This document shows, one piece after another, positions 2,479-18,447 of a stretch of 38,366 nucleotides of DNA. How positions within the stretch are numbered: position 1 is the stretch's first letter; each line of letters opens with the position of its first letter. The notes under the pieces are model-generated. The model made no database searches and was not told the DNA's origin. It was given only the letters and a program-made list of their open reading frames with translations. The translations under genes were made by a program, and so were the position numbers. Source of the DNA: an uncultured Synergistales bacterium (lineage in GTDB: Bacteria > Synergistota > Synergistia > Synergistales > Aminobacteriaceae). The stretch spans positions 1-38,366 of the forward strand of contig CAJOLN010000013.1 in NCBI GenBank assembly GCA_905235395.1, in the 5' to 3' direction.

Positions 2479-3885
2479 TTAGAATCCGAAATATTTCTTT
2501 GCGTTCCCGTAACTTATGGAACGTGCTATATCCTTGAGTGTATCAATGTCATCTGGGAAGAAACCGTCTTCAACCCATTCACCTAACTGCCTGCAAATGA
2601 TTCGCCTGAAGTATTCGTGTCTCGGATAGCTCAGGAAACTTCTGCTGTCAGTGAGCATACCAATGAAACCTGGAAGGTAACCAAGAGAAGCAAGGGATTT
2701 CATGTGAGCAGTCATGCCTTCAAAGTGATCCTCGAACCACCATGCAGAACCATGCTGAACCTTTGAGACTCCGGCAATAGTATCATCCTGGAAACATCCG
2801 CAGATTGTATCAATAGCAGAGTTATCGTTACCATTCAGGCTGTAGAGGATTGTCTTCGGGAGTTCGTGATTAGCTTCGAGTGCACCTAAGAACTGTGCTG
2901 TCTGGACAGAAGGTGCGCTGTTGTCAACGCAGTCATAACCAGTATCAGGGCCAAGTTTCTCAAACATAGGAATGTTATTGTCACGTCGGCAGCCATAGTG
3001 TAACTGCATAACCCACCCGCGTCTGTGATATTCACCAGCAGCGAAGAGCATGAAAGCTGTCTTGAATTTTGCTTCATCAGATACATTCGGTATTTTGCCT
3101 GCAGAACGTTCAGAGAAGATTCGTTCAATATCTTCATCTGAAGCTGGAGCATACATGACGAAATTCAAAGCATGATCGCTGAGTGTGCCCCCATGAGACG
3201 CAAAGAAGTCCATGCGTTTTGAGAGTGCTGTTTTGAGATCTCTGAATGATTCGATTTGTATACCTGAAAGTTTGCTGAGTACCTGAATGTAATCAGTCCA
3301 GGTATTTTTTTCGATGTTCATGGCCTTATCAGGTCTCCATGCCGGGAGAACTTTTGTGCTGAAAGATTCATCACGGGAAATTTTTTCATGCCATTCAAGA
3401 GAGTCAACAGGATCATCAGTTGTGCATATGGTCTCAACATTGCTTCGCTGAATTAAATTCCGAACGCCGAAGTCAGGCTGATGTAGTTTTTTATTGCAGA
3501 GTTCCCAGACAGTTTCGGCAGTTGAAGAGTTAAGTATTCCGTCATAATCGAAATATCTGCGCAGTTCGAGATGACTCCAATGATACAATGGATTTCCAAT
3601 TGCACGTCCCACTACACCGGCCCATTTTATGAACTTGTCATGTTCACTTGCATCTCCTGTGATGAATCTCTCAGGTACTCCTGCACAGCGCATTAAACGC
3701 CACTTGTAATGATCTCCGCCAAGCCAGACTTGAGTAATGCTGTCATAGTGAATATTATCGTGAATCTCTTTAGGATTCAGGTGACAGTGATAGTCAATGA
3801 TTGGGCATGCCTCAGCTGCATCATGATAAAGGATACGAGCAGTTTCTGTGTTCAGGAGAAAATCTTTGTCCATAAACGTTTTCAT
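2479..3885 (-). CDS. uxaC: Glucuronate isomerase (UxaC)
   Basis: Cytoplasmic uronate isomerase: it converts D-glucuronate to D-fructuronate and D-galacturonate to D-tagaturonate, the first step of hexuronate breakdown. The 468 residues match the family length. DYHCHLNPKEI (residues 31-41) supplies the two metal-binding histidines of the amidohydrolase fold, and the segments GDHYKWRLMRCAG, GWVMQLHYGCRRDNN and FIGMLTDSRSF are characteristic of UxaC. ATG 3885 has a strong SD (AAGGAGCTTT on the minus strand, 3891-3900). It is a single-gene unit with its own promoter candidate. No uxaB, uxuA, kdgK or kdgA is in the window, so the remaining steps must be encoded elsewhere. Confidence 0.97.
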   Translation of the reverse strand: MKTFMDKDFLLNTETARILYHDAAEACPIIDYHCHLNPKEIHDNIHYDSITQVWLGGDHYKWRLMRCAGVPERFITGDASEHDKFIKWAGVVGRAIGNPLYHWSHLELRRYFDYDGILNSSTAETVWELCNKKLHQPDFGVRNLIQRSNVETICTTDDPVDSLEWHEKISRDESFSTKVLPAWRPDKAMNIEKNTWTDYIQVLSKLSGIQIESFRDLKTALSKRMDFFASHGGTLSDHALNFVMYAPASDEDIERIFSERSAGKIPNVSDEAKFKTAFMLFAAGEYHRRGWVMQLHYGCRRDNNIPMFEKLGPDTGYDCVDNSAPSVQTAQFLGALEANHELPKTILYSLNGNDNSAIDTICGCFQDDTIAGVSKVQHGSAWWFEDHFEGMTAHMKSLASLGYLPGFIGMLTDSRSFLSYPRHEYFRRIICRQLGEWVEDGFFPDDIDTLKDIARSISYGNAKKYFGF

Positions 3886-3994: not shown

Positions 3995-4035
3995 AATGTG
4001 ATAAAATGCATTTAAAATTCACATGAAAGGAATAG

Positions 4036-4072
4036 TTGACAGTTGACAATGACAGAAAATTCTGTGTATAAT
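4036..4072 (+). promoter_or_regulatory. Near-consensus sigma-70 promoter with duplicated -35 box
   Basis: TTGACA (4043-4048) and TATAAT (4067-4072) both match the consensus fully, with an 18-base spacer. A second perfect TTGACA lies 7 bases upstream (4036-4041) because AGTTGAC is duplicated (4034-4047). The predicted start, near 4079, falls at the beginning of a 7-bp tandem repeat. The downstream target is the FkbM methyltransferase gene, through a leader of about 180 bases. It is the best-scoring promoter by eye in the window. Confidence 0.8.
4052..4065. promoter_or_regulatory. Palindrome in the promoter spacer, candidate operator
   Basis: ACAGAA and TTCTGT form a perfect 6-bp inverted repeat separated by AA. 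It lies wholly between the -35 (4043-4048) and -10 (4067-4072) boxes. A protein bound there would block RNA polymerase, so a repressor site is the natural reading. The regulator is unknown. Confidence 0.5.
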
Positions 4073-4120
4073 GCTCACAGCTCACAGCTCACAGCTCACA
4101 GCTCACAGCTCACAGCTCAC
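4073..4120. repeat. Tandem 7-bp repeat GCTCACA, 6.9 copies
   Basis: Forty-eight bases consist of six perfect copies and one partial copy of GCTCACA. The array begins at the base after the TATAAT box and covers the predicted transcription start, so the first part of the FkbM-gene leader would be made of repeat. A 7-bp unit can change copy number by slipped-strand mispairing. Changes here would alter leader length but not the promoter spacer. Confidence 0.95.
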
Positions 4121-4204
4121 CTAATCCTAATCTTTGTCCCTTCAGCCTTTTATCATAGCAGAACTTCCAGAAAGAATCAAAAAAGAATTCACGAAGAAAA
4201 TTGT

Positions 4205-4239
4205 GCTCTGCCGTTCATGAATGTCGGCAGGGCTTTTTT
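4205..4239 (+). terminator. Intrinsic terminator in the leader of the FkbM gene
   Basis: GCTCTGCCG (4205-4213) pairs with CGGCAGGGC (4225-4233) in a 9-bp stem with one G-U pair and an 11-base loop, followed by six T. It ends only 6 bases before the GGAGG SD of the methyltransferase gene and lies about 125 bases downstream of the predicted start site. It could act as an attenuator of that gene, or as the end of a small RNA of roughly 160 bases that starts at the 4043-4072 promoter. Confidence 0.75.
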
Positions 4240-4257
4240 CTGCATGGAGGTTTCAGC

Positions 4258-5376
4258 ATGAGCATCAAGAATACAGTCAAGGAACATTGCCCTGAGTTTT
4301 TGCTTCCATTGATAAGGACATCGTATAACATTATTATAGCTCCTTACCGAATGATGAAACATAACATGAATTTGCATATGATTGAAGAACGTGCACAGAA
4401 ATATCTTCCGTACTATCAGGATGAATTATCGCGTGAAATTCTCAATGCAAGACTTCGTTACATCAAGACTAACGACAAAAATATTTTTCTGGATTTAGCA
4501 GAAAGAATGGGTGTAAAGTACACGAAGCTCTGTGAACTTCCAAAGGGAAATTTTTCCGGCATTCTTGTTGTGTATGATAAAGAAGGAAACGATTTCAGAT
4601 ACATGCAAAGACTTATGCCCGCAAGCGACTGGGCAGGCAGATACAGAATGATGAAGCTGAAAGATTTTCTCAGAGGTGCAAAAGTTGCAGAAGATGAACT
4701 TATCACATGCATACTCACTCCTCATAACATTAAGAAATTCAATAAGTTCATTGCAGGGAATAATTTGGGAAACAGGTGCAAAGGAGGCGCATTATACTCA
4801 TTCAGAGATGATGAACAGTACCTCGATATGTGTGCTCCTGTCGATGATGAAGTTATGATTGATGCAGGTGCTTATGACGGCATGACAGCATTGCGTTTCC
4901 TGAAATGGGGAGGCAGTAAGATTAAGCATGTATACTCATTTGAGTTTGACCCTCTGAATGTTCAAAAGTGTGAAGAGAATCTCAGATGCCATGAAGACAA
5001 AATTACACTAATACCAAAAGGCACATGGTCAAAAAAAGAAACTGTGTATATCAATTCAAGCGGCAGTACAGGAAACAATGTATCAAATAAGGGAAGTACT
5101 CCTGTTGAACTTACAGCTATTGATGATGTTGTGAAGGATGAAAAAGTTACATTCATCAAGATGGACGTTGAAGGTGCAGAGCTTGAATCTCTCAAAGGCG
5201 CAAGGAACACAATCATCAAAAATCACCCACGATTAGCAATTTGTGCATATCATAAACTCAAAGACTTATATGAACTTCCTGAATATATCTTGTCTCTCGT
5301 CCCTGAATACAGATTCTATCTGAGACATTATTGTTCGCGCGAATGGGAGACAGTGCTTTATGCATTCGTGGATTAG
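4258..5376 (+). CDS. FkbM family methyltransferase
   Basis: SAM-dependent methyltransferase of the FkbM family, which usually O-methylates sugars or natural-product hydroxyls; the substrate is unknown here. The C-terminal domain shows the SAM-binding loop DAGAYDG (residues 202-208), the acidic strand end SFEFDP and the family signature KMDVEGAELESLKGA (about 301-315). Residues 1-190 form an N-terminal part that I do not recognise. ATG 4258 is chosen because GGAGG (4246-4250) precedes it at good spacing; an upstream in-frame TTG at 4201 would start inside the leader terminator. No other surface-polysaccharide or secondary-metabolite genes adjoin it. Expression probably depends on the elaborate upstream region (strong promoter, palindrome, repeat, terminator). 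Confidence 0.85.
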   Translation: MSIKNTVKEHCPEFLLPLIRTSYNIIIAPYRMMKHNMNLHMIEERAQKYLPYYQDELSREILNARLRYIKTNDKNIFLDLAERMGVKYTKLCELPKGNFSGILVVYDKEGNDFRYMQRLMPASDWAGRYRMMKLKDFLRGAKVAEDELITCILTPHNIKKFNKFIAGNNLGNRCKGGALYSFRDDEQYLDMCAPVDDEVMIDAGAYDGMTALRFLKWGGSKIKHVYSFEFDPLNVQKCEENLRCHEDKITLIPKGTWSKKETVYINSSGSTGNNVSNKGSTPVELTAIDDVVKDEKVTFIKMDVEGAELESLKGARNTIIKNHPRLAICAYHKLKDLYELPEYILSLVPEYRFYLRHYCSREWETVLYAFVD

Positions 5377-10826: not shown

Positions 10827-12152
10827 GTGAAAGCAGGTAAAAATCTTTTCTGTCTTATGTTTATCGCTTTAATTCTGTTTGTAGTATCAGGGTGCGGAGG
10901 ATCATCAAATAAGTCTGTCCCTAATAATGATACTCCGGTTGTTGAAGAGCCAGATAACAACGAAGAAGACAACCAGACTGACGAAGACAACCAGACTGAT
11001 GAAAACACAACCACAGGCGAAACCTATACGTCAACTACAGGTGGAACTCATGCTATCGAACTCACCAGCGGTACAGCAAGTTATGAGAATATCACAGTAA
11101 CAAAAACAGGTGATGTATCAGGAAGAGATGACGATTACGACTGGAAAGGAACTAATGCGGCCATACTTGCAAGCGGAGGATCAGTACTCACGATCAAAGG
11201 TTCATCGACTACGATAACATCAAATGCGTCATACGGTAATGCAGTATTCTCTTACGGCGGGAATAACAGCAACTCAAGCAACAATCAGGGCGACGGCACA
11301 ACCGTGAACATTTCAGATGCGACGATAACGACCTCATCGAACAATTCCGGCGGAATAATGACAACAGGAGGCGGCATAATGAATGCCAGCAACCTCACAA
11401 TCACTACATCAGGCGGTTCATCAGCAGCAATAAGATCTGACAGCGGCGGAGGTACTGTTACAGTCTCAGGAGGAACGTACACAACAAACGGAACAGGTTC
11501 ACCTGCAATATATTCAACAGCGGCAATAACTGTTTTAGATGCAGATTTAACTGCGAATGTTGCACAAGCTGTAGTCATTGAGGGTGGTAATTCAGTAACT
11601 CTTGAGAACTCAAATCTAAATGCTAATCACAGCAAGAAAAATAGTCAGGATACCACATATCAGGCAGTATTAATATATAAATCCATGTCTCTTGATGCAT
11701 CAAGCGGAACATCTGCCTTCAATATGACGGACGGAAGCATAACGAATACTAACGGAGATATATTCTGCGTAACGAACACGAAAACCGTAATCACACTTTC
11801 AGGTGTCAGCATAAAGAATAACGATTCATCAGGAAATTTCCTGCGTGCAGAAGGACAAGAATGGGGCAATTCAAACAGCAACGGAGGAACTGTTACGCTC
11901 AATGCATCGGGTCAGGACATGGCCGGAAATATTATCGTTGATGATTTATCATCACTGACTCTGAATATGTCTGACAGTTCGACATACGAAGGTGCAATCA
12001 ATCAATCAGGACAGAGCGGTACAGTCAACGTAACAATAGAGGAAGGCTCAGAATGGATTCTCACGGGAAATTCATACGTGAGCAGCCTGACGAACAATGG
12101 AACAATCACGAAAGGTTCTTACAGTCTATATGTAAACGGAATAGCACAGTAA
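10827..12152 (+). CDS. Surface lipoprotein with Gly/Ser/Thr/Asn-rich beta-helix repeats
   Basis: Secreted lipoprotein. The start is GTG 10827, with AGGAGG at 10812-10817. Residues 1-22 are a signal peptide ending in a lipobox (VSGC), with lipidated Cys23. An acidic linker (about 35-63) holds two DNQTDE units. The rest is rich in Thr, Ser, Gly and Asn in short strand-turn repeats (for example TTVNISDATITTSSN, NASNLTITTSGG, NGGTVTLNASG), as expected of a right-handed parallel beta-helix. The layout resembles hypothetical surface proteins of gut anaerobes annotated as carbohydrate-binding or adhesin-like. Function is unproven; surface binding or adhesion is the likely role. The composition is unlike that of the neighbouring enzymes but normal for such proteins. 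Confidence 0.8.
   Translation: MKAGKNLFCLMFIALILFVVSGCGGSSNKSVPNNDTPVVEEPDNNEEDNQTDEDNQTDENTTTGETYTSTTGGTHAIELTSGTASYENITVTKTGDVSGRDDDYDWKGTNAAILASGGSVLTIKGSSTTITSNASYGNAVFSYGGNNSNSSNNQGDGTTVNISDATITTSSNNSGGIMTTGGGIMNASNLTITTSGGSSAAIRSDSGGGTVTVSGGTYTTNGTGSPAIYSTAAITVLDADLTANVAQAVVIEGGNSVTLENSNLNANHSKKNSQDTTYQAVLIYKSMSLDASSGTSAFNMTDGSITNTNGDIFCVTNTKTVITLSGVSIKNNDSSGNFLRAEGQEWGNSNSNGGTVTLNASGQDMAGNIIVDDLSSLTLNMSDSSTYEGAINQSGQSGTVNVTIEEGSEWILTGNSYVSSLTNNGTITKGSYSLYVNGIAQ
10968..11003 (+). repeat. Two-copy 18-bp tandem repeat within the lipoprotein gene
   Basis: Two adjacent 18-base copies, differing at one position, encode DNQTDE twice in the acidic linker. Because the unit is a multiple of three, copy-number change would alter linker length without breaking the frame. 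Confidence 0.85.
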
Positions 12153-18365: not shown

Positions 18366-18383
18366 CTGAAATTTTCCTTCCGA

Positions 18384-18409
18384 TTTTGATTTTGCATTTT
18401 GATTTTGCA
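18384..18409. repeat. Perfect 13-bp tandem duplication in a leader
   Basis: TTTTGATTTTGCA occurs twice back to back. It lies between the predicted transcription start (near 18441) and the SD of the leftward secreted-protein gene, so it is transcribed as part of its leader. It is probably a recent slippage duplication. Confidence 0.8.
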
Positions 18410-18447
18410 TAATGGGATTGAAAGTTTATGAGCTAAATTTTCTGAGT

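Follow-up and report, generated by a model that had tools for sequence, protein, structure and literature searches.

Frame-switching repeat loci are known mainly from pathogens with small genomes. In the pil1 and pil3 pilus operons of S. gallolyticus, 5-bp GCAGA repeats lie within a leader ORF and the gain or loss of units moves the leader stop; in pil1, where the layout has been proven, the long leader covers a terminator hairpin ahead of the first gene (PMC3894217). The SSR contingency loci of H. influenzae carry arrays that switch frame and lie close to the amino ends of genes for surface glycans, with 5- and 7-bp units among those that occur (PMC2651432). A different arrangement is found at hmw1A and hmw2A, where a 7-bp array in the 5' untranslated region overlaps the promoter -10 box and copy number grades transcription (PMC8262952). 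The TAACTGA heptamers of marine Beggiatoaceae consist of a single unit with stop codons, lie upstream of start codons and have been proposed to form a protein-binding site (PMC4679880). A search of the available literature for the GCTCACA word or for phase variation in Synergistetes returned nothing relevant.

The window, the whole 38,366-nt stretch of contig CAJOLN010000013.1 from an uncultured Synergistales bacterium, contains a locus built from the same parts as the pil1/pil3 attenuator. This is probably a contingency (phase-variation) locus acting by reading frame, and one of at least 24 copies in its genome of a cassette found throughout the genus. Its parts are as follows.

2479-3885, reverse strand: uxaC (glucuronate isomerase), the upstream neighbor
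3999-4007, forward strand: P1, an upstream extended -10 element (TG-A-TAAAAT) and putative promoter of the leader mRNA, recognized by the recurrence of TGnTAnnnT
4026-4031, forward strand: AAAGGA, a Shine-Dalgarno-like element serving the leader ORF (TTG 4043/ATG 4049), with AAGG conserved in position
4034-4048, forward strand: AGTTGAC duplication, 2.1 copies (sequence, TRF), making the AAAGGA-to-ATG distance 17 nt
4043-4072, forward strand: P2, a sigma-70 promoter-like TTGACA-18 nt-TATAAT (12/12 consensus) overlapping the start of the leader ORF
4049-4261, forward strand: leader ORF, 70 codons plus TGA, with TTG 4043 as alternative in-frame start; its translation crosses the array
4052-4065, no strand: inverted repeat ACAGAA-AA-TTCTGT with 6-bp arms, at leader codons 2-6, read from the sequence
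4067-4072, forward strand: TATAAT, read from the sequence
4073-4120, forward strand: heptamer array (GCTCACA)6.9 of perfect copies (TRF), encoding AHSSQLT and stop-free in three frames
4205-4239, forward strand: terminator-like hairpin inside the leader ORF, a 9-bp stem followed by TTTTTT (-16.6 kcal/mol, z -3.06)
4246-4250, forward strand: GGAGG, the Shine-Dalgarno sequence of the FkbM gene, read from the sequence
4258-5376, forward strand: gene for an FkbM-family methyltransferase of 372 aa (Pfam PF05050, E 1.6e-18), the presumed controlled gene

The first-pass annotation had read the letters correctly: both TTGACA boxes (4036-4041 and 4043-4048), the palindrome, TATAAT and the 6.9 copies of GCTCACA are present as it described them. 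The array has the top TRF score of the window (96). Further tandem repeats at 10960-11013 and 18382-18410, with 18-bp and 13-bp units, have no cassette ahead of them. AGCU pairing gives the array RNA (4073-4122) a self-fold of -10.2 kcal/mol (z -4.7), which could affect slippage or translation.

The array lies inside an ORF, and its 7-bp unit is not divisible by 3. The frame of the first TTG (4036) ends after 11 codons, and TTG 4043 shares the frame of ATG 4049, from which the predicted peptide reads MTENSVYNAHSSQLTAHSSQLTAHLILIF...FFCMEVSA; the stop of this leader and the FkbM start share ATGA (4258-4261). If one repeat unit were lost, the leader would end after 22 codons, and if one were gained, after 38. 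The stops of these two short frames fall near 4122 and 4156, upstream of the hairpin, and the long frame crosses it. The locus thus has, as pil1 does, in-frame repeats within a leader ORF that possesses its own ribosome site, and a terminator hairpin that is reached by the long leader frame only. The leader of the window differs from that of locus L217 at 11, 9 and 4 places by codon position, so its amino acids are unconserved and the open frame alone is kept. A functional leader peptide, of which these differences give no sign, was dropped as a candidate; the unconserved peptide fits a requirement for translation rather than for the peptide, but lends little weight to the leader being translated. 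Because FkbM has its own GGAGG, uncoupled translation of this gene is also possible.

Searches with three GCTCACA copies identified four places in the genome of the window and none in a reversed control; the array and its promoter lie well outside what chance would give. Within the genus the word was recovered from 13 of 37 genomes, and outside it from none of 24 genomes of other genera in the order. The same GCTCACA loci are present in named records, which are Synergistaceae MAGs from goat, deer and reindeer gut. Alignment of the loci revealed a constant order: an upstream TGnTAtAAT (in most), AAAGGA, TTGACA, a start codon, TATAAT and the array. Of 43 genomes of the genus, 34 contain the pattern AAAGGA-N0-8-TTGACA-N16-19-TANAAT; the 27 genomes from other genera in the family gave no match, and nine genomes from other families gave one hit each. 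Judged by these counts, the cassette is specific to this genus of gut Synergistaceae. A looser search of the window's genome gave 28 sites, 23 of them with a 5- or 7-bp array behind, which together with C11 amounts to at least 24 cassettes in 1.98 Mb. AAGG stands 0-5 nt ahead of the -35 box in 25 of the 27 loci that were found via the repeat alone. Contigs often end in or near arrays (G004, G025, G000 C109, G068, G070-G072), which indicates that short-read assemblies break there and that loci are undercounted, and because arrays are so frequently at contig ends, some copy numbers may be assembly artefacts.

The repeat word changes from locus to locus. Among 94 sites that were read across the genus, 62 have a 7-bp array and 18 a 5-bp array, none has a unit of 3, 4 or 6 bp, and most of the array-less sites look like decayed arrays. 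Arrays begin 0-5 nt after the -10 box, 55 of 80 starting directly at its end and nearly all others within 1-3 nt, whatever the unit. None of the 42 distinct units contains a stop in any coding-strand frame (shuffled units, mean 5.1; P 0.001), and 15 contain one on the reverse strand. In other species of the genus, FkbM homologues of 47-64% identity carry the cassette with different units (GTTCACA, GGCTTAC, GGCTCAC, GTGGCTC, CGGCTGT, GTTCGCG and CGGCTTCA), an 8-bp unit occurs occasionally at such orthologous loci (L220, L243), and two FkbM homologue loci have decayed arrays. The switch has therefore been kept at these orthologues while the word changed, and the comparison indicates that the word is replaceable and the cassette constant. 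GCTCACA as a special word, an idea first suggested by its recurrence in distant phyla, was ruled out by the 42 units found in the cassette.

At nearly every locus, an open frame from the start codon between the boxes enters the array, and one of the three frames downstream of it is long, forming either a fused protein or a leader to the next gene. Starts were assigned by a fixed rule, with ATG preferred to GTG and GTG to TTG, at 7-21 nt from the beginning of AAGG. On this basis, 30 of 99 loci have the long frame behind the array in register (95% interval 0.21-0.40), which is not different from 1/3; this set leaves out arrays cut by contig ends, with which the count becomes 32 of 108. In-register and out-of-register states are thus both present, and a share of about one-third is as expected if switching is random, whereas ordinary coding repeats would nearly always be in register. 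The proposal in the first-pass annotation that 7-bp units are prone to slippage is borne out by this low share and by near-identical cassettes that differ by whole units. In one genome, for example, L109 and L111 have 1 mismatch in 45 bp upstream and carry 4.29 and 5.29 copies. With one genome per species, copy-number change is what such paralogues and relatives suggest.

Two architectures follow the array. At 48 of the 99 loci, it is fused in-frame to a long protein without a start of its own after the array; fused products include GT2 enzymes (L107, L119, L128, L130, L131), sugar transferases (L123, L129) and, as named by reading the translation, an acyltransferase (L116) and a WbsX-like protein (L122). 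At the leader loci (n=52), leaders are some tens of codons long. In 41 of these loci, the stop of the longest frame is no more than 12 nt from where the next gene starts, compared with 4 and 0 for the other two frames, and the ATGA overlap with the next gene is the most frequent arrangement. Terminator-like hairpins occur in 10 of the 52 leader loci, in none of the 49 fused loci and in 1.8% of shuffles; L217 has a weaker one, and most leader loci have none. As a general mechanism of the cassette, an attenuator was rejected on this count, and attenuation is likely an extra layer in some loci. The case for frame switching draws on demonstrated features: sequence, frames, conservation and statistics.

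The cassette offers two candidate promoters. P2 matches the sigma-70 consensus fully (12/12, 18-nt spacing within the usual 16-18), and in the 27 loci recovered via the repeat alone, a set unselected for promoter, TTGACA is perfect in 20 and a -10 box matching at least 5/6 positions lies at 16-18 nt in all 27. The upstream TGnTAnnnT of P1 lies mostly 10-33 nt ahead of AAGG in most of the same loci; by this pattern it is absent from 4 of 27, and it is weak and further up in three TTGCAA-type loci, and P1 is accordingly unrecognized or weak in about a quarter. Because 48 of 99 loci are fused and have no start after the array, the protein-making transcript must begin upstream of P2. A transcript from P2 would begin within the array, without a ribosome site or start codon, and on the reading of these loci cannot express fused genes; the idea that the protein mRNA starts in the array was discarded as impossible there. 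P2 is conserved and adjoins the array although it has no place in the frame-switch mechanism, and it may provide basal transcription of leader-type genes or raise slippage.

These findings bear directly on the model of the first-pass annotation, in which transcription starts from TTGACA/TATAAT inside the array, a repressor occupies the palindrome, and the number of copies sets the length of the leader or the choice of promoter; such a scheme would resemble the hmw1A rheostat. Every cassette carries a near-perfect P2, the heptamer array of hmw1A overlaps the -10 box of P2 there with more copies giving less transcription (PMC8262952), and GCTCACA arrays adjoin promoter-like boxes in Treponema vincentii and Aridibacter too. 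However, P2 transcripts would lack a ribosome site and start codon at the 48 fused loci, units are 5 or 7 bp and never 6, leader frames finish at gene starts, and the palindrome is unconserved, which together make the model very improbable. Its individual elements fare no better. Inverted repeats of 6 bp occur in just 6 of 114 cassette spacers, and the palindrome in the window, taken for a repressor site, is probably incidental. The duplicated -35 cannot offer a choice of promoter, as 25 nt separate the first TTGACA from the -10 box, with which it cannot pair; the AGTTGAC duplication is present at the window locus only, and its likely effect is a longer spacing between AAAGGA and the start codon. 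Nor is there support for the array as a rheostat of start site or leader length, since it lies inside an ORF that starts between the boxes. The suspicion that repeats merely gather at strong promoters as short neutral arrays, with random frames because the leaders are untranslated, is consistent with about one-third of frames being in register and with the lack of a silent-change excess in leader codons, but is hardly tenable given that no unit has a coding-strand stop, AAAGGA and the start codon are conserved, stops concentrate at gene starts, 48 genes lack any further start behind the array, and orthologous FkbM loci retain an array whose unit is different.

A role for P2 as a mutator would leave the frame-switch explanation intact. 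Frequent open complexes or abortive initiation at the array would raise slippage, so that P2 would serve instability and P1 expression. The exact placement of most arrays at the -10 end, regardless of unit, and the conservation of P2 although protein-making transcripts cannot begin there both speak for it, while basal expression of leader-type genes is an alternative role for P2; on balance the proposal is possible, if unlikely. A broader version, which is doubtful, envisages a hypermutable cassette in which the start region of P2 is the array and hence unstable, an upstream promoter makes the protein, the word is free to change, the 5- or 7-bp unit corresponds to the stretch from -10 to start, and the pairs of promoter-like boxes and arrays in Treponema, Aridibacter and others are cousins.

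The most likely mechanism at this locus is phase variation by frame switching, acting on a leader that is translated and coupled to FkbM; attenuation probably adds a further layer. P1, with its -10 near 4002-4007, would transcribe the leader mRNA, AAAGGA would bring ribosomes to TTG 4043 or ATG 4049, and from there they would read through the heptamer array, stop-free in every frame. The assembled 6.9 copies would represent the ON state, in which 70 codons are read through the hairpin to the stop at ATGA and ribosomes restart on FkbM. Slippage by one unit would shift the frame and place the stop 0-11 codons past the array, and the short frame would leave the hairpin uncovered and FkbM expression low (OFF). 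Slippage in living cells, ON/OFF expression and antitermination are the inferred parts of this scheme. Across the cassettes, the word, of 5 or 7 bp (rarely 8), varies by locus and the target is fused or leader-coupled.

The first-pass annotation had also suggested that the target is a phase-varied surface-glycan gene, and the wider survey agrees. Targets genus-wide are GT2 enzymes, MBOAT acyltransferases, bacterial sugar transferases, GT8, FkbM, GT61, LicD and ATP-grasp sugar-transfer proteins, a set dominated by glycosyltransferases, acyltransferases, FkbM and LicD that matches what is expected for surface-glycan variation. An uncultured gut genus appears to control dozens of surface-glycan genes in each genome by a single stereotyped switch, which, if true, would allow some 2^24 surface states per clone and would be a likely answer to phage or host pressure. 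The natural diversity of units also allows tests of which repeat features or neighboring elements set slippage rates.

GCTCACA arrays behind promoter-like boxes were seen in distant genomes as well, comprising Treponema vincentii and a relative, rumen Treponema, Aridibacter, a Lachnospiraceae MAG and an Oceanospirillaceae MAG. In L151, L152 and L153 (Treponema vincentii) and L184 (its relative, G360), long arrays stand right behind TTGACA-N17-(T/C)A(T/C/A)AAT; three loci of this set have AAAAGGGGC ahead of the array, and in three a similar peptide, E-YLD--LS, follows the array in one frame. The relative has a GTTCACA array at the same place too (2444220). In Aridibacter (L146, L150), promoter-like boxes and arrays are directly ahead of recR and rplB, as identified from translation; these are household genes, at which phase variation is unlikely. 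L181-L183 (G175, G150; Treponema phylum) have 9-20 GCTCACA units located 17-50 nt downstream of an ATG behind a TTGACA promoter, and appear from this layout to be frame-switch leaders in another phylum. Loci in Rhodobacteraceae (L084) and Pontibacter (L099) were set aside as relatives, having two copies only, which is chance level (20 fixed bases, 257 Gb).

Among the known systems, pil1/pil3 differ from the present cassette in several respects: here 42 units vary by locus and a single genus has 24 or more loci per genome; the stop of the leader overlaps the start of the gene, half of the loci are of fused and not of leader type, a hairpin is found in only 10 of 52 leaders, and a promoter adjoins the array. 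At the H. influenzae SSR loci, tetranucleotides dominate and, in the available part of that account, no fixed 5' cassette is reported, unlike in this genus (PMC2651432). The cassette shares with hmw1A/hmw2A the placement of 7-bp units at a promoter -10 box, but its array lies in an open frame rather than an untranslated region, is probably translated (and fused to protein in 48 loci), and its frame is predicted to matter. As with TAACTGA in Beggiatoaceae, numerous 7-bp arrays lie at gene starts of one genome, TAACTGA itself being patchy in distant phyla (PMC4679880). In this genus, the repeat word of the switch appears replaceable, and its position is fixed to a promoter.
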